Source of the DNA: Terriglobus aquaticus | GTDB taxonomy: Bacteria; Acidobacteriota; Terriglobia; Terriglobales; Acidobacteriaceae | DNA: 64,000 nt | Direction: 5' to 3' | Assembly: GCF_025685415.1 (NCBI RefSeq) | Contig: NZ_JAGSYB010000001.1 | Coordinates: 496,001 to 560,000 of the forward strand | In this document: piece by piece, positions 15,962 to 49,561 of the stretch | How positions within the stretch are numbered: the stretch's first letter is position 1 | How the letters are laid out: each line of letters opens with the position of its first letter | Program-made: the position numbers and the translations under genes | Notes under the pieces: model-generated | The model's input: only the letters and a program-made list of their open reading frames with translations | Databases searched by the model: none | What the model was told of the DNA's origin: nothing

Positions 15962-16039
<78 letters not shown>

Positions 16040-31206: not shown

Positions 31207-33303
31207 ATGGCGACCCAATGGGGACGAAAAGAGACGATTATCTGGCCTCCGCATGTGCCGATGCTGAGCTATACAGCCGTTGCAACAGCCCTGCTATGCA
31301 CCTGCTTGTTCGTCTGGCAGAGGTTCACATTTTCAATGACGCCGCTCCAAAGGAGCTACATGACCGAGTACATCCGCTCCGATATCGGAGCCAAATTCAC
31401 CGCCCACGAGTCCTATCGGCTTCTCTATCTTGGAGGCGGGAAGGGCAAGCCGCGCCTGGCATTTCCAGTAGACTTCGCCCCCGGCGAAACCATCCTTCCA
31501 AATGGCAAGATTGTCCCGGTCGCGCTTTCGGACTTGGCGACCGCCCAGGGCTACCGTTGGTTCTACCGTGGGCCGGAACAGAAGCTCGCAGACCTCTCGC
31601 TGAACCGTTGGCTCCGCCTCACGGTTTTCGAGGACAAGGGCCTGTTGGATCTCTTCGCGATCAGCTTTGTTGAAGGCGGAGTCTGCCTCGCTGCCATGCT
31701 TTGGTTCGCCGTTCCCTACGACATCCGGCGCTTTAAGCAGATGAAGTATGGGCGGATTCTTCGCGGGCCGCAGTTGCTTTCGCCAAGCGAATTCAACCGC
31801 GCGCAGAAGGGCGACGGCATCGGCTTCAAGACAACCGAACTAGGAAAGATGATGCGGATTCCAGCACACAAGGAAGCCCAGCACTTCCAGATCATGGGCG
31901 ACACGGGCGTCGGCAAGACCCAGCTCATCGTCCAGATGCTCTGTCAGATTCAGGAGCGTGGCGAGTCCGCCATCGTCTACGATCCTGCCTGCGAATATCT
32001 CCAACGGTTCTACGACAAAGACCGCGGCGACATCGTTCTAAACCCTTTGGACGAGCGTTGCCCCTACTGGGGTCCGGCTCAGGAGATGGCCTCGAATGCC
32101 GAGGCCGACGCTATCGCAGCGTCGCTCTATCAGCCCGCCACCGACGCTAAGGACGAGTTCTTTCACCAGACTCCGGCACAGATTTTCGCCCATCTCTTAC
32201 GGAAGGGGCCGACTCCGCATCAGCTAGCCGAATGGATGGCCAGCAGCGAGACGCTGGAGCAAATGGTCGCAGGTACAGAGATGTCCTTCTACATCGACCG
32301 CAAGGCCGGCCCGCAGCGGGCAGGCGTGCTTGCATCCCTTGGACTGGTAGCAAAATGCTTCCGCCTCTTGCCGGAGAAAAACCAGACCGACCGGACTTGG
32401 AACGCCCGAACATGGGCGAAGGAACGCAAGGGATGGATATTCATTACGTCACGTCCGCCCGAACGCGAAACGCTGCGTCCGCTGCATTCGCTTTGGATCG
32501 ATTTGCTCGTCATGCGGCTGCTCACCGCGCCTCAGCCCGGACAGAAGCCAGTGTGGTTTGTGATCGACGAACTCGCCAGTTTGCAAAAGCTCCCGCAGCT
32601 CCATACGGCCATCACCGAGAACCGCAAGAGCAAGAATCCGCTGGTGCTTGGATTCCAAGGAAAGGCTCAGCTTGAGGTCATCTACGGCCACATGGCCGAG
32701 GTCATGCTGTCCCAGCCCGCGACCAAGATTTTCATGAAGACGGCGGAACCCAAAGCCGCCGAATGGATCTCTGAAGCCATCGGTAAGGTTGAGATCGAAC
32801 GCCTCAAAGAGACCAAGTTCGACGGCTCCCGCGCGGGCAAGAACTTCACTGTTGACCGCCAGATAGAGCCGCTGGTGATGGGTTCCGAGATCAGCGGATT
32901 GGACGATCGTCACGCCTATCTCAAGCTCGGAAATAACGTGGCAAGGTTCGACTTCGACTACCTCGACCTGCCAACTCCTACGCCAGCCTTCGTCCCACGG
33001 AAGTCGGCGGACGGGGAGATGAGCTTCGATCCCGAAACACTGCAGCCCCGCCGTCCTCAGATTCCGGTGTTAGAGGAAGCGGCAGCCGCACCAACTTCCG
33101 AGCCACAGTCCGGGGGCGGTGCTCCTTTGGCCCATAAGAAGACTAAGCAGACGGCCAGCGGTGTTCGACAGGAAGAGTCGGTCGGGCTCGCCCCTGAAGT
33201 CGGCTCGGAGCACGACGACCCGGAGAACGTGCGGGTGCCATTCGGCCCACATCACCTCGGATTGCACACGACAACCGAGGGTGTGGAGCAAGGGATCTTT
33301 TAG
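31207..33303 (+). CDS. trwB: Type IV coupling protein (TrwB/TraD-like)
   Basis: 698 aa. Membrane-anchored DNA pump linking relaxosome and secretion channel. Two N-terminal transmembrane helices (about 17-38 and 147-170) flank a roughly 100-residue periplasmic part; the cytoplasmic ATPase has Walker A IMGDTGVGKTQL (229-240) and Walker B VWFVIDELASL, followed by motifs typical of TraD/TrwB (LVLGFQGKAQLEVIYG). The periplasmic insert is longer than in R388 TrwB. A 70-residue variable tail may contact the relaxosome. Confidence 0.94.
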   Translation: MATQWGRKETIIWPPHVPMLSYTAVATALLCTCLFVWQRFTFSMTPLQRSYMTEYIRSDIGAKFTAHESYRLLYLGGGKGKPRLAFPVDFAPGETILPNGKIVPVALSDLATAQGYRWFYRGPEQKLADLSLNRWLRLTVFEDKGLLDLFAISFVEGGVCLAAMLWFAVPYDIRRFKQMKYGRILRGPQLLSPSEFNRAQKGDGIGFKTTELGKMMRIPAHKEAQHFQIMGDTGVGKTQLIVQMLCQIQERGESAIVYDPACEYLQRFYDKDRGDIVLNPLDERCPYWGPAQEMASNAEADAIAASLYQPATDAKDEFFHQTPAQIFAHLLRKGPTPHQLAEWMASSETLEQMVAGTEMSFYIDRKAGPQRAGVLASLGLVAKCFRLLPEKNQTDRTWNARTWAKERKGWIFITSRPPERETLRPLHSLWIDLLVMRLLTAPQPGQKPVWFVIDELASLQKLPQLHTAITENRKSKNPLVLGFQGKAQLEVIYGHMAEVMLSQPATKIFMKTAEPKAAEWISEAIGKVEIERLKETKFDGSRAGKNFTVDRQIEPLVMGSEISGLDDRHAYLKLGNNVARFDFDYLDLPTPTPAFVPRKSADGEMSFDPETLQPRRPQIPVLEEAAAAPTSEPQSGGGAPLAHKKTKQTASGVRQEESVGLAPEVGSEHDDPENVRVPFGPHHLGLHTTTEGVEQGIF

Positions 33304-33306
33304 ACC

Positions 33307-36087
33307 ATGCTCACCATCTCCAAACCACTCAGTTCCGGCCAGGCGCAGAGCTACCACAAGCTGGAGTTCACGTCGGAGACGCAGAACTATTACAAGCAGG
33401 GCGACGCTGTTCGGGGCGAGTGGCAAGGTCAGCTCGCTGCCCGCTTCGGGGTTTCCGGCGAAGTGTCGCCGCTCGAATTCTCCCGCCTTGCTGAGGGGAA
33501 GAATCCCACGACCGACGAGCAGATGGTCCGGCACCGGGCGGCGATGGAGTACAAGAACGCGGACGGCACGACGACTAAATCCGTCGAACACCGCGCCGGG
33601 TGGGATGCCACCTTTTCCGCTCCAAAGTCCGTGTCTCTCACTGCACTTGTAGGAGGCGACGACCGTGTGCGCGAAGCTCACCGCGCCGCTGTCACGACTG
33701 CTTTGGACGAGTTGGAGCGGTATACCCAGGCACGGATCGGTGGCAATCATCCCGCCGAGAATACAGGCAAGTTCATCGCTGCCAAGTTCGAGCATGACAC
33801 CGCCCGCCCGGTCGATGGCTATGCCGCGCCGCAGCTTCACACCCATGCCGTGATCTTCAACGTGACGGAGCGGGCAGACGGCACAACCCGTGCGGTTCAA
33901 CCCCAGGGTTTGTTCGACAGCCAGAACTTTGCGACGGCGGTGTATCAGTCGGAGTTGACATACCGGCTGACGAGGCTTGGATACGAAATCGAGCCAGGGA
34001 GAAGCGGTGCTCCCGAGATCAAGGGGTACTCGCAGGAGTACCTTGACGCGTCTAGCCCCCGCTCCCGACAGATCAAGGAACAACTGGAAAAGACGGGCCA
34101 CAGCGGTCCGGAGGCCGCGCAGATAGCCGCCCACTCCACCAGGGACCGAAAGCAGACTCTAACGGCGGAAGAGGTTCTGTCGGCCCATCGGGAGATGGCG
34201 GCCAGCTTCGGAGATCAACCGCAGCAGGTAATCACCGCTGCACGAGTCCGCGCCAATGAGGAGCAAGCGGAACGGACAACGTCCGCCAAGGAAGCAGTCA
34301 CGTTCGCTCGCGACAAAATCTTCGAGAGGGAGGCTGTCGCCGACGAGCGGATGATCTTGCGGGACGCTCTGCGTCGCGGCATGGGAGAGACAACGTACCG
34401 CGACATCCGAGTAGAGTTCAATCAGCGTCGGGAGATAGGAGATTTCAGCTTCGTCGGTGGAACGAAGCACAGCTCTGGCCGCAGCTTCACTACACCTGAA
34501 ACCATTGCCGCCGAACGTGCCAACATTCGCTATGTTCTGGATGGCAGGAACGCCGTCGAGCCGATCATGAGTGCGGAGTCGGCTAGGGAACATGCCAGCA
34601 CGAAGACCTTCCTCAGCGAAACGCAGCGCAGGGTAATTGAGCAAGTCCTCAACTCCGCCGACCGTATTCACGGATTGCAAGGACTCGCCGGCTCAGGCAA
34701 GACCAGCGGTCTTCAGTCGATCCGGGAGGGAGCGGAATCGGCTGGTTACAAAGTTGAGGGATTTGCGCCCACATCCAAGGCTGCAGGACAACTCCGTGAG
34801 GCTGGAATCGAGGCTACGACACTTCAGAGCTTCCTCGCCCGTGGTCAAAATCATTCAAGTACCGAGCCCCCCACCCGGCATCTCTACATGCTCGACGAGT
34901 CCAGTCTCGCGAGCACCAAACAGATGCGCTCACTCCTCGGCAGACTCGGTCCTAACGACCGCGTCCTGGTCATCGGTGACACCCGGCAGCATCAGGGCGT
35001 GGATGCCGGGCGGCCATTCCAGCAGATGCAGGAGGCCGGAATGCAGACCTCAAAGCTCGACAAGATCATGCGTCAAAAAGATGCTGAGCTGCTCAAGGCA
35101 GTCCAGCATTTAGCAAATGGAGAAACCGTAAAGGGGATCGCCATGCTCGCGGAGCAGGGCCGTGTCACTGAGATTCCAAACGGGCACGATCGCATTGCCG
35201 CCATCGCCAGGGACTACGCTGCGAATCCAAAGAACACGATCATTGTCTCCCCGGACAATCGGAGTCGTCAGGAGATCAATGAAGCCGTTCGCACCGAGCT
35301 ACGGAAAGGCGGAAGATTAGCGGAAGACGGCCAGGTGTTCCGCATCCTCACGCACCGATCAGACATGACAGGAGCAGACCGAACTTGGGCTGCTCGTTAC
35401 AACGCTGGCGACGTTCTCCAGTACACCGCCGGCAGCAAGGCCGAGGGGATCGAGCGCGGCAGCTTTTCGACCGTCCAGTCTGTCGATGCTCGTGCTAACA
35501 CCCTCACAGTCTCGTTGGAGGGCGGATCAACCGTCACCTACGATCCGCGTCGGCTGAGGGGTGTGAATGTCTTCCGGGAAGTCGAGCGGGAGTTCGCCAC
35601 TGGAGAACGGGTTCAGTTCACCGCACCGAACAAAGACCTCGGCGTCGCCAATCGCGACCTCGGAACCGTGGTCAGCCTCGAAGACGGCCAGGTTACTTTG
35701 CAAATGGATGGCAAATCCGCCCGCCCGGTTACATTCGACACAGCCGAGTTCCGCCAGTTTGACCACGGCTACGCCGTCACCTCGCATAGCTCACAGGGCC
35801 TCACCGCTGGCCGTGTTCTCGCTCATATGGACACCGATTCCTCGCGCGGCCTCATCAACGACCGGCTTGCCTATGTTGCCATTTCACGCGCCTCGGATGA
35901 TGCCCGCATCTACACCAATAATGCGGAAACCCTCGGAGAGCGTCTGGCATCGGATATCGCCAAAACCGCCGCCGTGGAGTTCCCGAAGCTGATTTCTGCT
36001 GGACAGGCCCAGGAGTCTTTCGGCATCTCTGGGAGTCGCGCGGTCGCGCCTGAGGTCGAACTCGAAGGGTTCAGTCTAGGAATCTGA
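33307..36087 (+). CDS. trwC: MobF-family conjugative relaxase-helicase (TrwC-like)
   Basis: 926 aa. N-terminal relaxase: candidate catalytic tyrosines YY (28-29), SAPKSVS (104-110), and the metal-binding His triad from FEHDTAR (His163) and PQLHTHAVIFN (His178, His180). The C-terminal half is a RecD-like 5'-3' helicase with Walker A LQGLAGSGKTSG (457-468), YMLDESSLAS, GDTRQHQGVDAG and the late YAVTSHSSQGLTAGR and LAYVAISRA motifs. It nicks oriT, stays bound to the 5' end and unwinds the strand. Four bases after the coupling-protein gene. Confidence 0.96.
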   Translation: MLTISKPLSSGQAQSYHKLEFTSETQNYYKQGDAVRGEWQGQLAARFGVSGEVSPLEFSRLAEGKNPTTDEQMVRHRAAMEYKNADGTTTKSVEHRAGWDATFSAPKSVSLTALVGGDDRVREAHRAAVTTALDELERYTQARIGGNHPAENTGKFIAAKFEHDTARPVDGYAAPQLHTHAVIFNVTERADGTTRAVQPQGLFDSQNFATAVYQSELTYRLTRLGYEIEPGRSGAPEIKGYSQEYLDASSPRSRQIKEQLEKTGHSGPEAAQIAAHSTRDRKQTLTAEEVLSAHREMAASFGDQPQQVITAARVRANEEQAERTTSAKEAVTFARDKIFEREAVADERMILRDALRRGMGETTYRDIRVEFNQRREIGDFSFVGGTKHSSGRSFTTPETIAAERANIRYVLDGRNAVEPIMSAESAREHASTKTFLSETQRRVIEQVLNSADRIHGLQGLAGSGKTSGLQSIREGAESAGYKVEGFAPTSKAAGQLREAGIEATTLQSFLARGQNHSSTEPPTRHLYMLDESSLASTKQMRSLLGRLGPNDRVLVIGDTRQHQGVDAGRPFQQMQEAGMQTSKLDKIMRQKDAELLKAVQHLANGETVKGIAMLAEQGRVTEIPNGHDRIAAIARDYAANPKNTIIVSPDNRSRQEINEAVRTELRKGGRLAEDGQVFRILTHRSDMTGADRTWAARYNAGDVLQYTAGSKAEGIERGSFSTVQSVDARANTLTVSLEGGSTVTYDPRRLRGVNVFREVEREFATGERVQFTAPNKDLGVANRDLGTVVSLEDGQVTLQMDGKSARPVTFDTAEFRQFDHGYAVTSHSSQGLTAGRVLAHMDTDSSRGLINDRLAYVAISRASDDARIYTNNAETLGERLASDIAKTAAVEFPKLISAGQAQESFGISGSRAVAPEVELEGFSLGI

Positions 36088-36129
36088 GCCAATGCTCTAA
36101 AATTGGTGCACGGAGAATTCTGAGCGCCA

Positions 36130-39048
36130 ATGAGTCTGACGGCCTATCACGCCAAGCTCTTTGCCCATGAGCTGACGAAACGGTCCAGCTCGGACAATGT
36201 GGACAAACTTGCGTCTGCACTCTCCGACGCGCAAGTTGACCTCAATCCGCATCAGATCGAAGCCGCGTTGTTTGCGTTCCGCTCCCCACTGTCGAAGGGG
36301 GCTATCCTTGCTGATGAAGTAGGCCTCGGCAAAACCATCGAGGCGGGCATTCTGCTAGCCCAGCATTGGGCGGAGCGGCGAAGGACTTTGCTCGTCATCT
36401 GCCCAGCCAACCTCCGCAAGCAATGGAGCCAGGAACTCCTCGACAAGTTTTTCCTCCCCAGTGTCATCCTTGAAGCCAAAACCTTCAACGAGGCGATTCG
36501 AGCGGGCATTCTGAACCCGTTTCAGCAAAGTAAGATCATCATTTGTTCCTTCCAGTTTGCCCGATCAAAGGAACCCTATCTGCGAACCACTCCGTGGAAT
36601 CTGGTCGTTATCGACGAGGCCCACCGACTTCGGAACGTCTACAAACCCGGCAATAAGGTGGCGAACTCCATCAAGAATGCCGTTAGCGGCTTTCAAAAGG
36701 TTCTGCTAACGGCCACTCCGCTGCAGAACTCCCTTCTGGAGCTTTACGGGCTCGTCAGTATCGTAGACGAGTTCACCTTTGGCGATCTCCGCAGCTTTCG
36801 CGCACAGTTTGGTCGTCTGGCTGGTAAAGCGGACTTCGACGCTCTCAAACAGCGGCTACGTCCGATCTGCCAACGCACTCTGCGACGGCAGGTGCTCGCC
36901 TATGTGCCGTATACCAACCGACACGCGATGGTTCAAGAGTTTTACCCAAGCCCCGCCGAACAGCAGCTCTACGAACTCGTCTCCGACTACCTCATGGGGG
37001 ACAAGCTGTACGCTCTTCCAGCCAGCCAGCGCCAGCTCATGACGCTCATTCTGAGGAAGCTGCTTGCGTCTTCGACCTACGCCATCTCCGATACTTTGCT
37101 TGGGCTTGCTACCAAGCTGGAGACGGCGGAGGCTGACCAGCAGAAGGCCGCCGAGGTTCCCGCCTCCCTTGCGGATGACTTCGAGACGCTTCCCGAAGTG
37201 CAAGAAGAATGGGTTGATGAGGATGAGGGATCGGAATCGGAGTCTGACAGAGCCGATGGAAAGAAGCTACCGGAACGACTCTCTCCAGAGCAATTAGCCG
37301 AACTTCGCGCTGAAAAGGACAAGCTCCACCAGTTCCACGCTCTGGCCAAGGCAATTCAGACGAACTCAAAAGGCGACGCACTTCTCACAGCGTTGCAGCG
37401 TGGCTTCGAGGCCGCACGCACGGTTCGCATGGAAGATGGAACTGGCGCTCTCCAGCAGAAAGCCATCATCTTTACCGAGTCCCGCCGTACCCAGGTGTAC
37501 CTATTTAATCTGCTCCAGCAGACTGAGTTCGCTGAGAAAGTTGTGCTCTTCAACGGTACGAACACCGATCCCCAGAGTCAAGCAATCTATCAGGCTTGGA
37601 TGAAACAGCACGCCGGGACTGACCGCATTACCGGATCACCTACCGCCGACAAGCGAGCAGCCCTGGTCGAATACTTCCGAGACACGGCCAGCATCATGAT
37701 TGCGACTGAGGCGGCGGCAGAAGGAATCAATCTCCAGTTCTGCAATCTGGTCGTGAACTACGATATGCCGTGGAATCCTCAGCGTATCGAGCAGCGTATT
37801 GGCAGATGCCACCGGTACGGCCAAAAGTTCGACGTGGTTGTTGTGAACTTTCTCAACAAGGCGAATGCCGCCGATGTGCGTGTCTACCAGCTCTTAGCCG
37901 AGAAGTTCAAACTGTTCGACGGGGTTTTCGGCGCTAGCGATGAAGTCATCGGCGCAGTCGAGTCGGGTGTGGACTTTGAAAAGCGCATCGTCACTATCTA
38001 CCAGCAGTGCCGCACGACCGAGCAGATTGAGTTTCAGTTCGACCAGCTCCAACAGGAGCTTGAATCGCAAATCGCCCAGGCGCGGAGCGACGCAAGCGAA
38101 CAGCTCCTCAATAATTTCGATCAAGACGTCATAGATCGGGTTCGCGTTTCGAGCGGAGAATCGCTTGGACGCTTTCAAGACTTGCTTTGGAGGCTTACGG
38201 CCTTTTATCTCGCTCCGTTCGCGCGCTTCGATACGCCGGGCCACTCGTTCTATCTGGAGCGTGATCCATTTTCAGCAAACGCCCGCAGCGAGCAACCGGT
38301 GAACCCTGGTCCTTACCGCATGGGTAAGAACGTCGAGGATGCAAATACCTATCGCGTTGGACACCCACTGGCACAGGAAGTCTTGCGGAGTTGTTGCGGG
38401 CTTCCAACGCCAAAGGTCGAAATCCGCTTCGATCTCAGCAGTAGCGGCAAGCGTATTGCGGCCTTGGAGGTCTTACCAATCCGAAGCGGCTGGCTCGCTT
38501 GCTCGCGGTTTACTCTCAACGGATTTGAGACGGAAGACCACATCTTGCTTAGCAGCGTCTTGGACGACGGGCAGCCGCTTGAATCGTCTGCCTGCAAGCG
38601 TCTTTTTGATCTTCACGGAGAAGCTGGACAGCCGCTAGTGCTGGAACCGCCGGATTCGCTTCAGTCAGAGATGAATAAAGAGCAGCAACGTGTTCTTGGC
38701 GAGCTTGAAGAGAGGAGCGGAAAGTGGCTCGACTCTGAAATCGAGAAACTCGACCGATGGACCGAAGATCTCAAGTACGGTCTTGAACAGGAAATCAAAG
38801 ATCTGGACAAAGAAATCCGCGAAACCAAAAGGCAAGCAAAAGTGGCCGTCGCTTTGGAGGCAAAGCTGCCCTTGCACCGCAGAGCAAAGGAATTGGAGGC
38901 TGATCGAGCCAGCAAACGCCGCGATCTCTTCAATGCGCAAGACGAGATAGATACTCGGAAGGAAAGCTTAATCTCGGATATTGAATCGAGACTGAGAAAG
39001 AATGCGGATGTCGAAGTTCTTTTCGTATGCAGGTGGACTTTGGAATAG
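36130..39048 (+). CDS. SNF2/RapA-like superfamily 2 helicase of the defence operon
   Basis: 972 aa. Helicase motifs: Q-like NPHQIEAA (39-46), Walker A ADEVGLGKTIEAG (61-73), DEAH (162-165), LLTATPLQN, and motif VI QRIGRCHRYGQ (555-565). An acidic low-complexity loop (355-374) and a long region between the two RecA lobes are unlike RapA proper. The last 120 residues (about 845-965) form a charged coiled coil. This is a double-strand DNA translocase. First of five same-strand genes with gaps of 9 or fewer bases; it resembles the SNF2 partner seen in DISARM but no DrmA or DrmB is present. Confidence 0.88.
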   Translation: MSLTAYHAKLFAHELTKRSSSDNVDKLASALSDAQVDLNPHQIEAALFAFRSPLSKGAILADEVGLGKTIEAGILLAQHWAERRRTLLVICPANLRKQWSQELLDKFFLPSVILEAKTFNEAIRAGILNPFQQSKIIICSFQFARSKEPYLRTTPWNLVVIDEAHRLRNVYKPGNKVANSIKNAVSGFQKVLLTATPLQNSLLELYGLVSIVDEFTFGDLRSFRAQFGRLAGKADFDALKQRLRPICQRTLRRQVLAYVPYTNRHAMVQEFYPSPAEQQLYELVSDYLMGDKLYALPASQRQLMTLILRKLLASSTYAISDTLLGLATKLETAEADQQKAAEVPASLADDFETLPEVQEEWVDEDEGSESESDRADGKKLPERLSPEQLAELRAEKDKLHQFHALAKAIQTNSKGDALLTALQRGFEAARTVRMEDGTGALQQKAIIFTESRRTQVYLFNLLQQTEFAEKVVLFNGTNTDPQSQAIYQAWMKQHAGTDRITGSPTADKRAALVEYFRDTASIMIATEAAAEGINLQFCNLVVNYDMPWNPQRIEQRIGRCHRYGQKFDVVVVNFLNKANAADVRVYQLLAEKFKLFDGVFGASDEVIGAVESGVDFEKRIVTIYQQCRTTEQIEFQFDQLQQELESQIAQARSDASEQLLNNFDQDVIDRVRVSSGESLGRFQDLLWRLTAFYLAPFARFDTPGHSFYLERDPFSANARSEQPVNPGPYRMGKNVEDANTYRVGHPLAQEVLRSCCGLPTPKVEIRFDLSSSGKRIAALEVLPIRSGWLACSRFTLNGFETEDHILLSSVLDDGQPLESSACKRLFDLHGEAGQPLVLEPPDSLQSEMNKEQQRVLGELEERSGKWLDSEIEKLDRWTEDLKYGLEQEIKDLDKEIRETKRQAKVAVALEAKLPLHRRAKELEADRASKRRDLFNAQDEIDTRKESLISDIESRLRKNADVEVLFVCRWTLE

Positions 39049-39057
39049 AGAGGCCTC

Positions 39058-39267
39058 GTGGACAACACAACGATCGCACTGCCAAAGACCGCCGACGAAG
39101 AACTTGCAGATAAGATCGCGGATTCGCTTGGTGCCGCAAAACTCATCTCGACAGAAAAACTACCGCGAGTCAGGGACGGCCTACGTAAAGGCAACTTGAC
39201 CAGTGCGGATTGGAAACTGCTGGTTGAGCTTAGTGAACCAACAAAGTCCGGAGGCACTGCCGAATGA
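39058..39267 (+). CDS. 69-aa protein coupled to the SMC-like ATPase gene
   Basis: 69 aa, GTG start with GAGAGG just upstream, nine bases after the helicase stop and ending in a 4-base ATGA overlap with the next gene. Acidic and helical (ADEELADKIADSLGAAKLIS, then KLPRVRDGLRKGNLTSADWKLLVE). No family recognised. Its tight coupling suggests a stoichiometric partner, adaptor or inhibitor of the following ATPase. Confidence 0.7.
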   Translation: MDNTTIALPKTADEELADKIADSLGAAKLISTEKLPRVRDGLRKGNLTSADWKLLVELSEPTKSGGTAE

Positions 39268-41630
39268 AGATGCCAATGCAGCAGCTTTCGATTTCTGGAT
39301 TCCGTGGGGCCACGAAGTCCATAGACCTCATTTTTGAAGACAAGCCCGTTGTCATGATCTTTGGTGAAAATGGCACTGGCAAGTCAACAATCGTCGATGC
39401 CATCGACTTCATCTGTAACGAATGTGCTGGCCCCCTTGAGGGTAGGCAATCCACACCTGTAAAGGAATACTTGCCGTCACTGGGCGGCAAGGCCGCCGAT
39501 TTGAAGGTGCGACTCAAGTGGGCCGCTAAGACCTGGAGCGCTACTTTAGACGGTGCCAAAGCAAAGGTAGTCGGAGGATCGCCGCGCCCAAAAGCTAGAA
39601 TTCTGCGTCGCACACAGATTCTCGAAATTGTGGACGCACAGCCAGCGAAACGATACGAAGCGTTCAGCAGATTCGTGGCTGTGCCAAAGGTCGAGCAGTC
39701 GGAGAATGCCCTGCGAGAGGCCGTCCGGACCGTTGACGCAGAGTTTGATGCAGCGGCCAGAAGTCTCTCAGAAGCTCAAGCTGCCTTAAAGCGACTTCAG
39801 ACCGAGGCCGGAGCTTCTGCCATAGACCTGATGAAATGGGCCAAAGACAAGAACGACGTAGATCCGAAAGACCTAACTGCGCGAACGCAGCACATCACGA
39901 CTTTGCTTTCTTCGGTTCAATCAGCGAAAACCGCTTTGAACGGCTTGAATCAGATACGCGGTCAGGCAGCGGAAGACGCGAAATCAATCGAGTCGCTGAC
40001 TATCGACTTGCAGGCAGCCGAAGAACAAAGCGAAGAAGCGAAGAATGACCTCTTGAAGCTCCTGGATGTTGCGGCGGCCTACTTGACTGCACATGATGAC
40101 CAGGACTCCTGCCCAGTCTGCGAACGACCAATAGACCGAGCCGAACTCATAGTCCGCTTGAATGCCCGTAAGGCGTCCGGCGCAGCGGTTATCGCCGCAT
40201 CTGCCGAATTGGATGCTGCCAAGAAATCAGAAGATCGTCGCCAAACATTGGTGAGAGATGCACGAACTCGTTTCTTGAAAGCTGCTGCGACCCTACTCAA
40301 AGCGTTTAGCGAATCACAATCTCCGGCGGTCGCGAACACGAAGATCGAATGGAGTACGTTCTCGCTGGTGCAAGACGTAGTCGCGGATGAACAAGTAGAT
40401 GCTGCTGACCTACAAGCCCAAAGCCTCTTAGCTGTCTGTGAGTCATACGATCCAGCGCTTCAATCAGAGCGCACCGGGCTTTCGGCACAGCTTGAAGCAC
40501 TACGAGCGATCAAACTTCAATTCGCGGCGGTGGTGAAGTCCAGCAAGCAAGCAAAGGCGCAGGAGACGCTTAGCAAACGATTGAAAGCTGTCCTAAACAT
40601 TGTGGAAGCGCAGCGTAAGGCTTACGTCGATCAGGCTCTTGCGTCAATTACGCAGCGTGTCGATTCGCTTTATGCCAAGCTCCACCCCGGCGAAAAGCTG
40701 GGCGACATCAAGCTACAGCTTGATCCCAACAAACGAGGGAGCCTAAATGTTTCGAGTCGATTCGAGTCCAAGACCGGCATCCCTCCGCAAGCGTATTACA
40801 GCGAAGCTCACATGGACACGCTGGGCATCTGCATCTTCATTGCACTTGCGGAGAAGGACGTTGCGGCGAACACACTCCTAGTCTTGGATGACGTGCTCAC
40901 ATCTGCCGATCAGCCGCACGTTGACCGATTCATCAGTGTGATTCACGAAGAACTGACGCTACCCGTTCTTATCACGACACACTATAGGCCGTGGCGTGAC
41001 CGCTATCGGTATGCGACTGGACCCGTGGGGAATGTCCATTTGATCGAACTTCTCTCCTGGACGCAGGAGCGCGGCGTTCGGCACACAAAGACCAAACTGG
41101 AGATTGACCAGTTAAAGGCACTACTAGCTATTGAACCAATCGACCGTCAGGCTCTCGCTTCGAAAGCAGGTGTTCTCCTGGAGGCGGCGCTGCGGGAGCT
41201 TTGCATCCAGTACAAATGCAAAATGTCTTTCAATGCCGAGGGACAGCACACTCTTGGTGAGTACCTGAACGGAATCGACTCAAAGCTCCGCAAGCTCATG
41301 AAGTGCGTAACGAATAGCAAAAGCGTACCTCCCTCCACGCCGACACAGACCTCAACCGACATACTCCCGTTGTTGGCGGCGGTGGATTCCATGACTTGGA
41401 TACGGAACCAAGTCGGCGCGCATTTCAACTTGTCCGGTATGGACCTCACGGACGCACAAATCAGCGAATTCGCTAAATCAACGTGCAGCCTTCTTGATGC
41501 GTTGATTTGTCTTGAGTGTGGAGAACTGCCAAGAAAGAACACTGGTTCCTGCTTCGCATGCACTTGCAAAAGCCAAGAATTGCACCCACTGACAAGCCCC
41601 GGAGCATCAGCCGCTCAGACTGGTAATTGA
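39264..41630 (+). CDS. Zinc-hook SMC/Rad50-like ATPase with C-terminal HEPN-like domain
   Basis: 788 aa. ABC-type ATPase split by a coiled coil: Walker A FGENGTGKSTIVD (33-45), coiled coil 140-280, zinc-hook CPVC (283-286), returning coil to 470, signature-like YSEAHMDTLG (512-521), Walker B LLVLDDVLTSAD (538-549) and His switch ITTHYRPW (570-577). The C-terminal part is unusual: a helical domain (about 625-740) ending with RNQVGAH (714-720), an Rx4-6H pattern of HEPN RNases, then a zinc ribbon (Cys749, 752, 763, 766). The layout recalls RloC, a zinc-hook ATPase with an anticodon-nuclease domain, but overall relatedness needs a search. Confidence 0.82.
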   Translation: MKMPMQQLSISGFRGATKSIDLIFEDKPVVMIFGENGTGKSTIVDAIDFICNECAGPLEGRQSTPVKEYLPSLGGKAADLKVRLKWAAKTWSATLDGAKAKVVGGSPRPKARILRRTQILEIVDAQPAKRYEAFSRFVAVPKVEQSENALREAVRTVDAEFDAAARSLSEAQAALKRLQTEAGASAIDLMKWAKDKNDVDPKDLTARTQHITTLLSSVQSAKTALNGLNQIRGQAAEDAKSIESLTIDLQAAEEQSEEAKNDLLKLLDVAAAYLTAHDDQDSCPVCERPIDRAELIVRLNARKASGAAVIAASAELDAAKKSEDRRQTLVRDARTRFLKAAATLLKAFSESQSPAVANTKIEWSTFSLVQDVVADEQVDAADLQAQSLLAVCESYDPALQSERTGLSAQLEALRAIKLQFAAVVKSSKQAKAQETLSKRLKAVLNIVEAQRKAYVDQALASITQRVDSLYAKLHPGEKLGDIKLQLDPNKRGSLNVSSRFESKTGIPPQAYYSEAHMDTLGICIFIALAEKDVAANTLLVLDDVLTSADQPHVDRFISVIHEELTLPVLITTHYRPWRDRYRYATGPVGNVHLIELLSWTQERGVRHTKTKLEIDQLKALLAIEPIDRQALASKAGVLLEAALRELCIQYKCKMSFNAEGQHTLGEYLNGIDSKLRKLMKCVTNSKSVPPSTPTQTSTDILPLLAAVDSMTWIRNQVGAHFNLSGMDLTDAQISEFAKSTCSLLDALICLECGELPRKNTGSCFACTCKSQELHPLTSPGASAAQTGN

Positions 41631-41634
41631 TCGA

Positions 41635-43323
41635 ATGCAGAATAAACAACGACTCGAACTGACATGGATTGGCAAAGAGAACCGGCCACGGTTGGAGCCA
41701 CGGATTCTGCTTGAAGACCCGGAGAAAAGCTATCACGCAAAGAAGCGCCTTACCGACAGCGACATCTTCGATAACCGCTTGATTTTTGGCGACAACTTAC
41801 TTGCCTTGAAAGCTCTTGAGCAAGAATTCGCCGGGAAGGTGAAATGCGTCTTCATTGATCCGCCTTATAATACCGGCTCCGCGTTTACGCATTACGATGA
41901 CGGAGTTGAACATTCCATTTGGCTTTCGCTTATGCGCGACCGTTTGGAATCCCTGCGCCGCCTACTCGCTGCGAATGGAAGCATCTGGATATCTATCGAC
42001 GACAATGAGGCGCATTACTTAAAGGTCCTCTGTGATGAAGTGTTTGGACGAGAGTGCTTTGTCGCAAGCATTATTTGGGAAAAAGCAGACTCTCCACGAA
42101 ACTCTGCTCGACAATTTTCTAGCGACCACGATTACATCCTTGTCTACTCCAAGAACCCGGACTGGACTCCTCAACGGTTGCCACGAACTGAGGAGTCCGA
42201 TTCTATATATGGAAATCCCGACGAAGATCCCAGAGGAGTGTGGCTTCCTGGAGATCCATATGCGAACAAGCCATATTCCAAAGGTCTCTACACTATGACC
42301 GGACCATCTGGTAGGACATTTAAACCTCCACCCGGACGCTACTGGCGTGTGTCAGAAGAGAAGCTTCGTGAACTGGACCAGGATGGCCGGGTATGGTGGG
42401 GACCGAAAGGTGAGGCGCGGCCTAGTATCAAGCGCTACCTTGCGGAGGTCTCTGACTTGGTTCCTCGCACGCTTTGGCACAAACAAGACGTTGGTAGCAA
42501 TCGGACCTCGAAAAACGAGATGCGTGCGTTGTTTCCTGGTGATGAGTCATTTACAACTCCGAAACCAGAGAAATTATTGGAAAGACTACTTTTGATTGCA
42601 ACTCAGGCAGGAGACCTTGTGCTTGACTCGTTCGCTGGGTCTGGAACAACAGGCGCTGTGGCACACAAAATGCGTCGTCGTTGGATCATGGTCGAACTCG
42701 GCGAACACGCGCATACCCACGTTATTCCTCGCCTCAAGAAGGTCATCGACGGTGAAGACTCGGGGGGAGTGACCGAAACGACAGGTTGGAAAGGCGGAGG
42801 CGGATTCCGTTACTTCCACATTGCGCCGTCTCTACTTGAAAAGGATCGGTTCGGCAATCTCATCATCAGCAAACAGTACAACGCCGCGATGCTAGCCGAA
42901 GCGATGTGCAAGGTCATGGGTTTTACCTACGCGCCGAGTGACGAACTGTATTGGCAGCAAGGCCGATCCACCGAGAATGATTTTCTCTACGTCACAACCC
43001 AAACGCTCACTCGTGAGCAGCTCGCCAAATTGAGTGATGAGGTTGGCGACAATCGCAGTCTTCTCATCTGCTGCGCTGCGTTTCGTGGCAAGGCCGATGC
43101 CTTCCCAAACCTGACCATAAAGAAGATTCCGTCCGCCGTACTCGCAAAGTGCGAGTGGGGGCATGACGATTACAGCCTCAACGTCGCCAGCCTTCTGAAA
43201 GCTGCGCCACAAGTGGAATTTGCTCCATTGGTCTCTGAACAGACGCTCACTCCCAAGCAGGCTCGCCGCCGTGCGGCGCAACCGAACCTGTTTACGACTG
43301 ATGAGAACGGAGGTGCGGAATGA
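41635..43323 (+). CDS. mod: Type III-like DNA adenine methyltransferase (Mod)
   Basis: 562 aa. Beta-class N6-adenine methyltransferase: catalytic DPPYNTGSAF (75-84) precedes the SAM-binding DSFAGSGTTGAVA (331-343). A target-recognition region lies between. The C-terminal 150 residues (from about 400) are extra to the catalytic fold and may bind the Res subunit. Four bases after the SMC-like gene; its stop overlaps the Res start (ATGA). The recognition sequence cannot be read from the protein. Confidence 0.93.
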   Translation: MQNKQRLELTWIGKENRPRLEPRILLEDPEKSYHAKKRLTDSDIFDNRLIFGDNLLALKALEQEFAGKVKCVFIDPPYNTGSAFTHYDDGVEHSIWLSLMRDRLESLRRLLAANGSIWISIDDNEAHYLKVLCDEVFGRECFVASIIWEKADSPRNSARQFSSDHDYILVYSKNPDWTPQRLPRTEESDSIYGNPDEDPRGVWLPGDPYANKPYSKGLYTMTGPSGRTFKPPPGRYWRVSEEKLRELDQDGRVWWGPKGEARPSIKRYLAEVSDLVPRTLWHKQDVGSNRTSKNEMRALFPGDESFTTPKPEKLLERLLLIATQAGDLVLDSFAGSGTTGAVAHKMRRRWIMVELGEHAHTHVIPRLKKVIDGEDSGGVTETTGWKGGGGFRYFHIAPSLLEKDRFGNLIISKQYNAAMLAEAMCKVMGFTYAPSDELYWQQGRSTENDFLYVTTQTLTREQLAKLSDEVGDNRSLLICCAAFRGKADAFPNLTIKKIPSAVLAKCEWGHDDYSLNVASLLKAAPQVEFAPLVSEQTLTPKQARRRAAQPNLFTTDENGGAE

Positions 43324-46007
43324 AGCAATCCGGTAACGCTATCGCCAATCGCCTCAGCCTTCGCTTGCCACAACGTGAGTCGCTGGAGATCCTTGACCGC
43401 ATCTGTGACCTGCTCTCGCTACAAAAGGATCAAGACGCCACTCAAGCGCTCGCCACCGTTCGTGCCGAGTTTGCAAACGTCACCGACTTCGAGCGTGACT
43501 TTCCCTCGCTGTGCTTTGCGTTGGCAACTGGCGTCGGCAAGACCAGGCTGATGGGTGCATTCATTGCCTATCTCCATCAGGCGGAACGCATCCGTCACTT
43601 CTTCGTCCTTGCCCCGAATCTGACGATCTACAACAAGCTCATCTCAGATTTCACGCCAGGTTCGCGCAAGTACGTCTTCCAAGGACTGTCTGATTTTGTC
43701 ATTCAGCCCCCGGAGATCATCACTGGTGACAACTATGAGAGCGGGCGCGGTGTTCGTTCCGAGCGCCTGAGCCAACCCGCGATCCCCGGCCTCAAAGACC
43801 CCGATGCGCCTGTTCACATCAACATCTTCAACATCAGCAAGATCAACTCTGAGGTTCGTGGCGGCGCGGAGCCACGCATCAAGCGGCTACAGGAGTACAT
43901 CGGGGAAAGCTATTTCGAGTACCTGTCCGAGTTGGACGATCTCGTTCTCTTGATGGATGAGTCGCACCGCTATCGCGGCAAAGCCGGAATGCGGGCGATC
44001 AACGAACTCAAACCGATCCTGGGGCTTGAGCTGACTGCCACACCGCGCACCGAGACAGCCGGTGGTGCGGACTTCAAGAACGTCATCTACAGCTACCCCC
44101 TGTCCTCAGCGCTTCGGGATGGATTCGTAAAAGAGCCAGCCGTAGCGACCCGCGAAAACTTCCGTGCAGAAAATTACGACGAGGCCGGCCTTGAGAAGCT
44201 GAAGCTGGAGGACGGTGTTCGCATCCACGAACACACGAAAGTCCAGCTCGACATCTACGCCCGAGAAAACATGAAGCCGCTGGTGAAGCCGTTCATGCTT
44301 GTTGTGGCGAAGGACACCACGCACGCGAACGATCTTCAAAAACGGATCGAAGCCGAAGACTTCTTCGGAGGGCGCTATAAAGGCCGCGTCATTACCGTCC
44401 ACTCCAACCAAGCCGGCGACGAGAAGGACGAAACGGTGCAGCAGCTTCTCTCTGTTGAAGATCCCGCAAACCCGACCGAGATCGTCATTCACGTCAATAT
44501 GCTCAAAGAAGGCTGGGACGTGACGAATTTGTACACCATCGTTCCGCTTCGCACGGCGAATTCACGAACGCTGGTCGAACAGTCCATCGGACGCGGTTTG
44601 CGTCTTCCTTATGGAAAGCGGACTGGCGTTCCCGACGTGGATCGTCTGACCATCGTTTCGCACGATCGTTTCCAAGAGATCGTTGACCATGCCAACGATC
44701 CCAACTCGATCATTCGCACGGGCATTGTCATCGGGCGGGATATTCCCTATACACCGACGAAGGCTGTCACCATCGAGCCCGTCTTTATGACTCAGTTGGG
44801 TTTGGGCATCGCACCTGCGGCTCCCACGCCGGGTGCCCCGCCTCAGCCCGCTCCGACAATTAGCGAGCCCGAGCGAAAGACCGCCGAAGTGACAATGCAA
44901 GTCATTCGGCAACAATTTGAGAGACTGACTCGCTCAGGCGATCTTAAGACACGGGATGTCCAACAGCGCATCACCGCGCGAGTAACAGAGCTGATGCAGC
45001 CAGTTCAAGGCGAACTTGCATCCATCTTGCCACCGGTAGATGTCGCCTCGGTCGTCGAGCGCGTCACAAGCGCGATTGCCGAACGAACAATCGACATTCC
45101 GAAGATCATCGTGACGCCGAAAGGTGAAGTGACTGTCGGCTACCAGGACTTCGATCTCGACTGCGCCAGCTTCCGCCAGCCACCGGCCGAGAAAGACTTG
45201 CTTGTACAGCACCTGATGAACAATCAGCGTTTCAAGATTGTTAGCGGTGATGGCATCGTTCTCGAAAAGAATCTTGAGGACTATATCGTTCGCGGTCTCA
45301 TCGACAAGGACGACATTAATTACGACGAGCACGCCGAACTTCTCTACAAGTTGGCGGGTCAGATGGTGCGCCATCTCCAGTCGTACCTTCAAACCCCGGA
45401 AGACGTATTGAATGTGTTGCAGTTCTATCAGACGCAGCTTGTCACGCTCATCCATGCCCAGATGAACCAGCATTACGTCGAGAGAGCAACTGAGTACGAG
45501 GTCACAGTCTCGAAGGGCTTCCAGACTCTTACCAGTAGCATGGCGGCGATGCAGACCGACCAAGCAATCCTCCCATTCCGCGCTCCGGTTGAAGAACGTC
45601 TCCTGATTCGAGGAATGCTCTTCGGAGGATTCTCGAAATGCCTATATCCCACCCAGAAGTTTGACTCAGACACCGAGCGGCGTTTCGCCATCATCCTTGA
45701 AGACGAGACTTCAGTTCTCAAGTGGCTCAAACCACCCAAAGATGTTCTGAGGATTTATTACTACCAGGAAGAGGTCTACCAACCGGATTTCGTCGTCGAA
45801 ACGGCAACCGCTCGATACCTCTGCGAACCGAAGCGTGCAAGTGAGATGACCGATGAGGTTGTGTTGCTGAAAGCAAAGGCAGCGAAGCTGTGGTGCCAAC
45901 ACGCGAGTACTGTTAGCGAGAAGCCTTGGCACTACCTGCTTATTCCCCACGACGCCATCAGCCAAAGCTCAACCTTTAGAAATCTGACCCAAAGATTTGC
46001 ACTCTGA
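43320..46007 (+). CDS. res: Type III-like restriction helicase-nuclease (Res)
   Basis: 895 aa. Superfamily 2 helicase with Walker A ALATGVGKTRLM (67-78), DESH box (213-216), LELTATPRTE and motif VI-like VEQSIGRGLRLPYG. The C-terminal PD-(D/E)xK nuclease is seen in QPDFVVETATARYLCEPK: Asp823 and Glu836-x-Lys838. All catalytic pieces appear intact. Paired with the overlapping mod gene as in type III systems, where Res cuts after translocation or sliding between two head-to-head unmethylated sites. Confidence 0.92.
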   Translation: MKQSGNAIANRLSLRLPQRESLEILDRICDLLSLQKDQDATQALATVRAEFANVTDFERDFPSLCFALATGVGKTRLMGAFIAYLHQAERIRHFFVLAPNLTIYNKLISDFTPGSRKYVFQGLSDFVIQPPEIITGDNYESGRGVRSERLSQPAIPGLKDPDAPVHINIFNISKINSEVRGGAEPRIKRLQEYIGESYFEYLSELDDLVLLMDESHRYRGKAGMRAINELKPILGLELTATPRTETAGGADFKNVIYSYPLSSALRDGFVKEPAVATRENFRAENYDEAGLEKLKLEDGVRIHEHTKVQLDIYARENMKPLVKPFMLVVAKDTTHANDLQKRIEAEDFFGGRYKGRVITVHSNQAGDEKDETVQQLLSVEDPANPTEIVIHVNMLKEGWDVTNLYTIVPLRTANSRTLVEQSIGRGLRLPYGKRTGVPDVDRLTIVSHDRFQEIVDHANDPNSIIRTGIVIGRDIPYTPTKAVTIEPVFMTQLGLGIAPAAPTPGAPPQPAPTISEPERKTAEVTMQVIRQQFERLTRSGDLKTRDVQQRITARVTELMQPVQGELASILPPVDVASVVERVTSAIAERTIDIPKIIVTPKGEVTVGYQDFDLDCASFRQPPAEKDLLVQHLMNNQRFKIVSGDGIVLEKNLEDYIVRGLIDKDDINYDEHAELLYKLAGQMVRHLQSYLQTPEDVLNVLQFYQTQLVTLIHAQMNQHYVERATEYEVTVSKGFQTLTSSMAAMQTDQAILPFRAPVEERLLIRGMLFGGFSKCLYPTQKFDSDTERRFAIILEDETSVLKWLKPPKDVLRIYYYQEEVYQPDFVVETATARYLCEPKRASEMTDEVVLLKAKAAKLWCQHASTVSEKPWHYLLIPHDAISQSSTFRNLTQRFAL

Positions 46008-46056: not shown

Positions 46057-49000
46057 TCAGATGAGGAGACGGTAATCATAGGGTGCCGAGCCAAAATGAT
46101 TAAGGTACATTCCCACTCGCGCAATTGCGCTTGCTGAATCCAGACTGGCCGGCAGCCGTGAGTAATAGTCAAAATGATTCCAATTCATCTTGGACAAACC
46201 CAAGATCTCTGACGCCACTAATGCGAGTTCCGACTCGCCTCGATAGCGTTTGATGAGCAGTGGGGCGGGAATGCGTCGCTTGCCCTGATAGTATTTGAAT
46301 CTTTCATTCTGGACACTTGGCGCGTGGCCGTGGACCCAGAGCAATGCAGCGTCATCGCCAAGCACAATAGCTGCGCCTCTTGGCATAGGAAATTTGTCGA
46401 TAATGGGCTTACCGTTCTGCATTCGTGAAGCAAGAAAACGGATCGACTCCTCAGTATTAATTTCGATCAATTCGACATTTGGAACTCCCTCAAGCCCCTG
46501 TGAAAGTCCATCCTGTTCGTCTTTGGTAAAACGCGTCCGCTTATGAATGACGACGCGTTTAGGCAGGCGCATTCTGGCGTCGAAGAACAGTTGCCGGATC
46601 GTTTCGCCAGTACGCCTTGCGTCATCCAGGGACATGTATGGATTTTTTCCGCGAATGATGGGGTGTTCGATGCGGCCAAGTCTGAACTGCAAACCCTCCC
46701 CCCGCGCGCTGTAGATATGACTGCACCCTAAGAGAATTTGCCTACCTGTTGCGGCTTGTGAATCAACACTATAGCCAATTCCCACAAAAGCGCTGTCGTC
46801 ATCCAGGCAATCAAGCCGCCACGGAGTCCGCATCGTCTTTGCGTATAGCGCGAGAGATATCCACCACTTCACCCTGCAACTCAGATTGGCAATAACGGTA
46901 CGTTCACGTAGAAATTGAGTGCTCTGGCCGTTGCGGGCTGCATAGGCTTTCACGTAATCGTGAAGGTCGAAGTGTTCACTGTTCTCGTTTACCAATTCAT
47001 AGGGAGCCCACTCATTTGGAACGAAGATAACCGAAATGGCTGATGGGTTGAGACTCCGTATACGATCCAAGGCAGAGCAGATACCTTTAGCGATTTGCTT
47101 TGCGCACTGCAAGGCACTCCCCGAAGGATTCACAGCTAAAGTCTGCCAAGTCGCTTCGCCGGGGCGAGCATGTATCAGCGGCAGGGAAAAACCAGCAGCA
47201 AAACCCGGAAAAGGTTGGAGATAGTCAAGCTCAGTTCTATTGGGCTCGCTCCGTTCGCCCAATTGACACATAAATCGTTCCAAATTGCGGCCATGGTTTG
47301 CAGGACAGATCGCCGCTAATTCTGAGCTAGTTGATAGACCTGCACTTGTCACCGAATAATCCCAGGGACGGTTGTTGACCAGCCCTTTCAGCGGGTTCGC
47401 GTCTTTCACCTCGCTATTGCCAGACTTCGAACTGAAAATTAGCTTGGCATCCTCTACAACGAAACCGCCAAATGATGAGTGGCGCTGGAGTTCAGGCCTA
47501 AGCGCCTGACGGCCTGGCTGAAACAATCCGGCATACAACGGAGTTTTCCCGATGAAAAAGTGTTGTCCGCTAGCATCAGGGATATCGACATTGGTAATTC
47601 TTGCCGTCCAGCGTTTCAAATCGGTGTCGTAGATGTCATTGTGTTGATAACCATAAACCGCGTTCCGCAACACCTTTGTGGCTTCCTCATCTGCCATCTC
47701 ACCGCTTGCCGTTTTTGCAATTACCTCGGGGGTCAGCAGGACGTATGCTTTACCCTTCAGGATCGCTAGTCGAAATGAAAGTGCTCTATGAATAGCGAAA
47801 CTTTGCTGGTTGTATGTTCTGTTTTCGTGTGAATCGACATCCCAAACACGACCACCATCGGTCTCGATCTGACAACTCTTCGCCACGCTACGCACAAGCG
47901 CCCTTCGCATCAGGGATTGAATGCGGTTGTCTCGCGCCAACTCATCAGGGGAGATCGCGACAGCGACAGGTGTCCCAACTACAGAAGACGCTAGGGACGA
48001 ACGAATAGTCGATATTGAGGCTAGGAAAAAGGCACCCGATGAGTGTGTTACCCAAGCCCCGTCGACATCTTTCATCTGCGTGTCGAGCCAAGCGCGCGGT
48101 CTCGATTGATCCGGAAACCTGAGTTCAACTTTTGTGATCTCGCTGGGTGTCGTCAGTGGATATGCATTACTCTTTGCCAAACTGGAGGCAGCCTCGGCGC
48201 GTGGTGAGAATTTACCTTTACGACTTTGGACTTTACTTGTTGCCACTAAAATTTCTTTGGCGGACTGCAAGTCTGCGTCCGTCAAAAGTCGAAGCGCTAT
48301 GCGTTCCATCAGGTCGTCGAAGCCTTGCGATGTGATATAAAAAGCCTCCCGTCCCGCGTTGACTGCTAGCTCCAGCAATGTTCTGACTTCCGGCGTCGGT
48401 GTCGCCTGCATTCCGCACCAGTAAAGCCGGCCCGCGTATCCGGTGGAGTAAGCTGCCGATAACGCAGACATTACGGAGTGATCTCGCCCGCTATATCCAA
48501 TTACTACAAGATCGTGGTCACGAAGATCGGCGACAAGTTCATCCTGCAATCCTGTCTCCTGTTGTTGAAGCTCCACGGCTGTATTTTTCAACTCGTCGTA
48601 GCGATAGTCTCCGTGTAGGGAAACCACGCGCAGGTCGCCCAACGAAGGAACCAGGCCGACGCGTTGCTGGGTGTCGATCCCCACTTCAATACAAGAGACA
48701 TTTCCCGCTGAACACGCTCTTGCAGCAAGTCCATCAAAATTTGTGGTCCAGACGGTTCGAATCAGGCCGATCTTAGATAGAAGTGGAACCAAGCGATACC
48801 CGATGAACGGTGCAGCGCTCCGCACATAGTTCTGAAAAAAACTTCTTCTATCAGTTGAGGTTGGAAAGCACGCTTGAGCATAGACGGCGTACTCGCTTGC
48901 GTCGGCATTCGGTGGAAAACCTCCCCTCCGGTCCAACCAATCCTGAATGCGCCTTTTCGTTCCCGGCAACGAGAGTTCACCAACCGATTCACGAAGAGCC

Positions 49001-49206: not shown

Positions 49207-49561
49207 AGCCCGTTGAGGGAGGTTTCCTCCCTGTCTGCGGCCCTTCGGTCCTCCGCCACCCTCCTCAGCGGGCCTTTCCCGCCCGCAACGCCCACCCTGT
49301 AAGCGTCCGCTTCGCGATCAAGAACAGTGAACGGACCGTGCGCTAAGGGGCGCTGCCCCGATCGCGCGGCGACAAGGGGTTTCCCCAATCTTCCGCGCTT
49401 CGCTTGTGCAGACCGGCCTTTGGCCGCCTCCGCTTTGCTCCGGTGGGGAGACCCCTCCCCTTGCGCCTTGCTACCCCCGCCTTCGCCAGGTGGCGTTCGG
49501 CATGTACATGCCGCGTTTCAACGCGGAAGTGCAAAGGCCAACACCCAAGGAGGAAGCACCC
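49207..49561. other. Noncoding spacer between Argonaute and ardC with two nested palindromes
   Basis: 355 bases, GC-rich, no convincing gene. It must contain the divergent promoters. At 49498-49513 is a perfect palindrome CGGCATGT-ACATGCCG, overlapping CCGCGTT-TC-AACGCGG (49511-49526). They lie about 36-64 bases before the ardC start, a position suited to an operator or an mRNA hairpin. Confidence 0.5.

Follow-up and report, generated by a model that had tools for sequence, protein, structure and literature searches.

An SNF2-linked type III restriction-modification operon with an exchangeable gene slot in Terriglobus aquaticus

A five-gene operon of Terriglobus aquaticus raises the question of whether the extra genes of a type III restriction-modification (R-M) locus are fixed parts of one defence machine or replaceable cargo. 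The operon occupies positions 36130 to 46007 of a 64,000-nucleotide stretch of contig NZ_JAGSYB010000001.1 (496,001 to 560,000; hereafter the window). It encodes, in order, an SNF2-family helicase, a 69-aa protein, a zinc-hook ATPase, and the type III methyltransferase Mod and restriction enzyme Res. An initial annotation, made from the DNA alone, regarded the first three genes as fixed companions of Mod and Res, and proposed a new composite defence system. We found that SNF2, Mod and Res form a conserved three-gene core, and that the 69-aa protein and the ATPase are cargo, lodged in a slot that separates SNF2 from Mod, and not fixed parts. The locus is better described as a type III R-M core carrying an accessory slot with exchangeable content than as the composite system first proposed. 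We consider it moderately probable that the operon is a mobile type III core whose SNF2-Mod slot holds an exchangeable guardian suicide effector of the PrrC/RloC-like kind.

Effectors linked to R-M and BREX loci are already known as a kind, and earlier accounts of suicide effectors in restriction operons have treated single families in turn (PrrC, HEPN families, BREX backup effectors). The present type III operon, conserved and partnered by SNF2, has a defined slot, the content of which is exchanged among close relatives. Within the accessible portions of the open-licence literature searched, no description was found of SNF2-slot-Mod-Res as a system, nor of an SNF2 and type III core, a defined slot, and a joint exchange of cargo and Mod segment; this agrees with the earlier view that the gene set resembles no complete named system. 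If the core controls the slot content, these loci would amount to a naturally occurring collection of effectors that plug in behind a single sensor. A simple rule for finding new effectors would then be to look in the interval from a DrmD-like helicase to a type III Mod.

The conserved SNF2-Mod-Res core

Open reading frames (ORFs) and translations bore out the five annotated genes and their coordinates, with intergenic gaps of +9, -4, +4 and -4 bases. The constant first gene of the core (36130-39048, + strand) encodes a 972-aa SNF2-family, DrmD-like helicase or translocase with Pfam matches to SNF2-rel_dom (113 bits) and Helicase_C. Its top PADLOC model is DrmD (647 bits), and the BrxHI/BrxHII and HmaA models also match. 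Mod (41635-43323, +) is a 562-aa beta-class DNA methyltransferase (N6_N4_Mtase, 167 bits; PADLOC MTase_III, 740 bits), in which DPPY (position 75) precedes motif I (331). It matches the solved Mod proteins 6k0w (165 bits) and EcoP15I 4zcf (119 bits). Res (43320-46007, +) is an 895-aa SF2 helicase with a C-terminal PD-ExK motif at residues 822-838 (ResIII, 71 bits; PADLOC REase_III, 768 bits), and its match to EcoP15I spans only ~100 residues (32 bits).

Judged from alignments, the catalytic motifs of the core are intact. The residues tested in Walker A, DEAH and motif VI of SNF2 are identical in 36/36 aligned sequences, and those tested in Walker A, DESH, motif VI and PD...ExK of Res are kept in 38-39 of 39. 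D331 and G335 of Mod motif I are present in all 44 aligned sequences. Motif IV DPP occurs in 42 of these, the other two having gaps, and its fourth residue is Y in 37 sequences and F in 5.

The DrmD matches bring up a DISARM-like system, in which a DrmD helicase and a methyltransferase would act with replaced partners. DrmD models are indeed the best matches of SNF2, in NCBIfam (649 bits) as in PADLOC. However, the protein falls below both NCBIfam DrmD cut-offs (649 bits against 950, and 270 bits against 610), and for Mod and Res the top models are those of type III. Among the PADLOC matches listed for fifteen neighbouring ORFs there is no DrmA, DrmB or DrmC, the sole DrmA-model match being SNF2 itself; the lack of DrmA and DrmB had also been pointed out in the initial annotation. 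Membership of DISARM was rejected on the lack of DrmA and DrmB among those listed matches and the missed DrmD cut-offs, and we regard a DISARM-like system with replaced partners as highly improbable.

The samples were 396 genomes of the window's phylum, 399 genomes of one class (overlapping the 396), and plasmids. Res was found in 18 of the 396 genomes (E <= 1e-60) and SNF2 in 19 (E <= 1e-100), with 16 genomes in common against 0.9 expected (p 1e-23, a value that ignores kinship). The two genomes with Res only have a locus at a contig end (L051; L numbers denote loci) and a decayed locus with an SNF2 fragment (L056). Among the three with SNF2 only, two (L073, L074) carry SNF2 straight before another type III pair (PADLOC MTase_III PDLC03646 and REase_III PDLC03654) with no slot, and the third (L075) has SNF2 at 33% identity. 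Res was present in 20 genomes of the class sample (E <= 1e-100). SNF2 is a near-fixed partner of the window's Mod/Res family, and for this gene (16/18 Res genomes) the notion of a fixed part largely holds.

The order of all five genes is found again in other genomes, in a Binatia metagenome-assembled genome (L002) and in a viral-collection contig (L077, 4938-15174), and is therefore not due to chance. In L077 the SNF2, small and ATPase genes stand ahead of EcoP15I-like Mod and Res, which score 234 and 215 bits against 4zcf, compared to 32 bits for the window Res. Taken together, the window type, L077 and the L073/L074 pairs place three type III subfamilies behind one helicase family. Two loci of the class sample speak against so close a partnership: the Mod and Res genes of L064 and L071 (identity to the window Res 62% and 35%) follow a ROK or PLD-like gene, and the ~12 kb upstream of them contain no SNF2. 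The four plasmid loci inspected (L034, L035, L037, L038) hold Mod/Res pairs alone, and their Res proteins are more distant (26-29% identity over ~230 residues).

Exchange of the slot content

SNF2 and Mod could both be read in 34 loci, window included. Among these, 11 have the ATPase in the slot, 17 have other genes and 6 have no main gene there, and the kinds of content number 12. The ATPase loci are the window, L002, L020, L039-L044, L061 and L077, and a short ORF precedes the ATPase in all except L041. Extra slot genes accompany it in L039 (PIN protein and 123-aa ORF), L040 (AbiV HEPN) and L042 (PLD nuclease). Empty slots (L029, L036, L049, L055, L062, L063) have gaps of -16 to 162 bp. By Pfam and PADLOC, the other cargo consists of AIPR (4 loci), PLD nuclease (2), DUF3800 (2) and DUF2130 with an AAA_13 ATPase (2), and, in single loci, Abi_2, OLD with TOPRIM, an HTH-M78 peptidase with DUF4411, Schlafen AlbA_2, Abi_C (AbiJ in PADLOC), a YhcG nuclease and a 527-aa protein. 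Toxin-like genes of the PIN kind occur in the slot as well, as does an insertion sequence. The 527-aa protein (L032, 6359-7942) has no Pfam or PADLOC match and is a candidate new effector. A second insertion point lies between Mod and Res, with YhcG or RhuM genes in L047, L054, L065 and L069.

The ATPase share depends on how loci were reached: 9/26 via Res in genomes, 0/6 via Mod in plasmids and 2/2 via the ATPase. L002 and L077 were drawn with the ATPase itself, and leaving both out gives 9/32. Outside the 34 are loci whose SNF2-Mod interval is hidden by contig ends (L051, L059, L060, L065, L072, L076), the decayed L056, L064 and L071 (no SNF2), the four Mod/Res-only plasmid loci, L045 (ATPase cut by the contig start), L046 (a distant ATPase by a methylase-like protein, no SNF2), L073-L075, Res matches on two contigs of genome G669, and a minor SNF2 match in G321. 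The fixed five-gene set of the initial annotation is only half right, with SNF2 and Res strongly associated but the ATPase in only 11/34 loci. For the 69-aa protein and the ATPase the claim of fixed parts fails, the slot being empty or otherwise filled in 23/34.

The window and L057, from the same family, illustrate the exchange. Their DNA identity is 82% over 36089-38822, 78% over 41644-42084 and 83% over 42594-45977, and the stretches 38823-41643 and 42085-42593 have no DNA match. These gaps indicate that the slot has been replaced together with the SNF2 tail, and so has the central segment of Mod. The break points delimit the exchangeable slot (38823-41643, +), which takes in the last ~74 SNF2 codons, and a variable central Mod segment (42085-42593, +), named by its position as a putative target-recognition domain. 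At the protein level SNF2 is 88% and Res 93% identical, and Mod residues 141-320 show low identity. L057 has a DUF2130 and AAA_13 cassette in place of the 69-aa protein and the ATPase, and its genome contains no ATPase match at E <= 1e-8; such a close relative contradicts a fixed five-gene set.

The same swap pattern was seen in L041/L050, from one genus (ATPase against AIPR), and in L040/L047 (ATPase and AbiV against OLD), where the L040 slot also matches a 103-bp piece of the Mod start. In these three pairs the core genes share 71-86% DNA identity, while the slot and the central Mod segment differ. L042 has a PLD gene more than L043, and the two also differ in the Mod segment. In L055, Mod is 79% identical, central segment included, SNF2 is only 42% identical, and the slot is empty. 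On an SNF2 tree built by a quick method, the ATPase label requires at least 8 changes (shuffled mean 9.4; 100/500 shuffles at 8 or fewer), and all labels together 17, below every one of 500 shuffles (mean 21.7). These counts point to some inertia of slot contents and to an ATPase nearly unlinked from core descent.

An integrated machine, in which SNF2, the 69-aa protein and the ATPase are complexed with Mod and Res and the ATPase loops or scans DNA within restriction, would account for the tight coupling of all five genes and for the order kept in L002 and, with EcoP15I-like Mod/Res, in L077. It would also account for the location of full-length ATPases, 8/8 of which lie in the slot in the 396 genomes, window included; two further weak matches are the truncated L045 and L046, the latter outside such a slot. 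Set against this are the 23 loci, close relatives among them, in which the core has an empty or other slot, and the occurrence of a related pair away from annotated R-M genes in two plasmids inspected. We hold a five-gene machine to be improbable.

The slot may also be a mere landing site, which would detract from a guardian role. Under such hitchhiking it would be a recombination hot spot in a mobile defence operon, with an independent abortive-infection system as cargo. The slot contents are mutually unrelated and often changed, and the PIN toxin-like genes and the insertion sequence are in keeping with this. Moreover, the small gene and ATPase stand alone as a pair in Hymenobacter and Fibrella plasmids, with no annotated R-M gene within 9 kb; these are the two that were inspected out of five plasmids matching over most of the query. 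However, the full-length ATPase was found only in the slot in the 396-genome sample, and the main cargo is co-directional with the core in 28/28 non-empty loci. Hitchhiking appears rather unlikely to us.

By name, 11/17 of the other cargoes belong to abortive-infection, nuclease or Schlafen families; the Pfam names of the remaining 6/17 (DUF3800, DUF2130 with AAA_13, the M78 peptidase and the 527-aa protein) do not point to any known effector, which tells against the guardian reading. A bolder form of the guardian reading treats SNF2-Mod-Res as a universal socket. The helicase, adapted by its C-terminal tail, would be a common sensor or gate controlling many unrelated suicide effectors. Target specificity, residing in the central Mod segment, and effector would be swapped as cassettes without regard to the core, and one and the same socket would be fitted to three Mod/Res families. 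We put this forward tentatively. The likeness of SNF2 tails to one another is not in line with the class of cargo (class test p 0.196), a result that counts against the guardian reading as well. Tail identity is below body identity in two swapped pairs (window/L057, 0.49 vs 0.93; L041/L050, 0.65 vs 0.94), but is not lowered in L040/L047 (0.77 vs 0.74). In the three same-cargo pairs the tail/body values are 0.89/0.86, 0.97/0.96 and 0.91/0.93. A tail matched to cargo class is left unsupported by the class test and by L040/L047.

The ATPase and its small partner

The slot cargo of the window consists of the ATPase and its 69-aa partner. The ATPase (39264-41630, +) is a 788-aa zinc-hook ABC/SMC-like protein (Pfam AAA_23, 49 bits) with the hook motif CPVC at residues 283-286. 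The P-loop residues G-x-x-G-x-G-K-S and the CPxC hook are invariant in 12 aligned ATPases, and four cysteines of the tail (C-x2-C...C-x-C) are kept in at least 90% of them. Searches against PDB sequences gave weak matches only, mostly to SMC/Rad50 heads, and the phages collection gave no match. AAA_13, which we take to be the RloC/PrrC ATPase model, scores 18.3 bits against a Pfam cut-off of 36, and a canonical RloC or PrrC was rejected on this ground. PADLOC reports a partial LmuB match of 72 bits.

The HEPN-like C-terminal region (41034-41627, +) contains R714-N715-x-x-G718-x-H720, which is invariant in 12/12 aligned sequences (the window and 11 relatives). This pattern falls within the HEPN motif Rx4-6H (PMC3710099). 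The C-terminal domain is a probable HEPN domain. The C-terminal 198 residues were modelled with AlphaFold2 (pLDDT 68, two sequences), and structure comparison with this model suggests a HEPN fold. VIA-align re-ranking put HEPN, Csm6 or MntA-HepT proteins, as judged by title, in 10 of the first 16 rows (Z 8.0-5.5), Csm6 and HepT being proteins with HEPN domains; the top row is 2hsb (Z 8.0, 3.5 A, 121 residues).

Several observations pull the other way. Foldseek gave no match to the C-terminal model at E <= 0.001, five of the same 16 rows are of other or unknown function and one is a ribosome-bound ligase, and Z values under ~13, the best here being 8.0, can reflect a common helical-bundle arrangement. 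Distant relatives from Rhizobium (L017) and BREX type 5 (L019) keep the H and lose the HEPN R. From Z 4.3 downward the rows are mostly vinculin/talin/FAT-type helical bundles. Since Z stays below the level trusted for helical folds, the HEPN claim is carried by the motif, with the fold in support. The SMC-HEPN label of the initial annotation is sustained by the hook and the invariant R/H motif, but the region has no Pfam HEPN match and its fold match is weak.

The 69-aa protein (39058-39267, +; GTG start) has no family match in Pfam, PADLOC or NCBIfam, and is poorly conserved save for L42, G45, D51 and W52. In 9/9 aligned sequences, and in L077 too, a small ORF sharing L, G, D and W abuts or overlaps the start of the ATPase gene, and the 69-aa gene is probably real. 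In L041 the ATPase has no detectable small ORF, a point against a two-gene guardian. An AlphaFold2 model consists of three helices (pLDDT 69). The plasmids gave a single match, with E about 1. A distant small ORF and ATPase, with a degenerate HEPN motif, lie between pglX and pglZ in a Halorhabdus BREX type 5 locus (L019, 7350-10014). PADLOC, one of the defence-system finders proposed, gave DrmD, MTase_III and REase_III as best models for the core and a partial LmuB match for the ATPase, and left the 69-aa protein unmatched.

We propose the following guardian mechanism. Mod would methylate the target and Res would cut unmodified DNA, and SNF2 probably translocates on DNA, aiding sensing or restriction. 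The guardian in this slot would comprise two genes, a zinc-hook ABC ATPase fused to a putative HEPN ribonuclease, and the 69-aa partner. The ribonuclease would be silenced by the ATPase part, and possibly also by the 69-aa partner. It might fire upon a block of the R-M core or if foreign or broken DNA is not cleared, and the infected cell would stop translation as its RNA is cut, which may limit phage. The effector may be linked to SNF2, and SNF2 or Mod/Res may control it. The HEPN motif, the intact restriction enzymes and the AIPR, Abi_2, AbiJ, AbiV, Schlafen and OLD cargo all fit a guardian slot. There is precedent: PrrC is an ABC-HEPN RNase inside the EcoprrI type IC restriction operon (PMC3710099), it is kept inactive by the restriction enzyme and released upon phage block (PMC3710099, PMC12707154), further HEPN/R-M linkages are described (PMC3710099), BREX loci have backup effectors (PMC12839542), and AIPR was termed common in R-M operons in 2008 (PMC2292703).

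The host element and known systems

The operon lies inside an integrated element. The 3' half of tRNA-Asp (attL, 15995-16039, +) has an exact 45-bp copy beyond the window, at genome C1:577751-577795, and adjoins a phage-type (tyrosine) integrase gene (16110-17309, -). The repeat and the integrase mark out an integrated element of ~65.8 kb, which also encodes VirB4-like, TrbI, TraD-like and MobF proteins. G+C content is 0.53-0.55 across the operon and 0.61-0.66 ahead of the element. Directly upstream of the operon are genes for a TraD-like coupling protein and a MobF/TrwC relaxase (31207-36087, +); L057 partly matches this stretch (65-72% DNA identity), and the relaxase DNA matches a Granulicella plasmid. 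Convergent with the operon, 49 bp past Res, is a long SIR2-argonaute fusion (46057-49206, -; 1049 aa; PADLOC pAgo, 1261 bits), which is a second defence gene on the element. A protein with an ArdC N-terminal (anti-restriction) domain (49406-50476, +) shares the element with the restriction operon.

With BREX, Hma and DISARM the operon shares an SNF2 helicase of one broad group, as seen in the DrmD, BrxHI/BrxHII and HmaA matches. BREX offers a further likeness in the backup effectors catalogued within its loci (PMC12839542), and the Halorhabdus type 5 locus has the distant small ORF and ATPase pair. Among the matches listed for the scanned neighbours of the operon there is no PglZ, BrxC, DUF499, DrmA or DrmB. 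A BREX or Hma member was rejected, neither PglZ with BrxC nor DUF499 with an N6-methyltransferase being among those matches. Lamassu is approached only through the partial LmuB match, and differs from the window ATPase with its HEPN-like tail; it was rejected because that match is partial and no LmuA is among the matches listed for the scanned neighbours.

RloC, called zinc-responsive in the title of its paper, has a zinc hook. Both PrrC and RloC resemble the window ATPase in joining an ABC ATPase to a C-terminal HEPN motif, and PrrC also in being a suicide gene in an R-M operon (PMC3710099). In contrast to both, the window ATPase falls below the AAA_13 cut-off, sits with a type III and not a type I system, and has a 69-aa partner, a cysteine-rich tail and a slot shared with unrelated genes.

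Type III R-M needs two head-to-head sites and hemimethylates its target. The window operon resembles the EcoP15I kind of this type in the motifs and best PADLOC models of Mod and Res. Unlike that kind, it has a Res far from EcoP15I, and it adds an upstream SNF2 helicase and an accessory slot.

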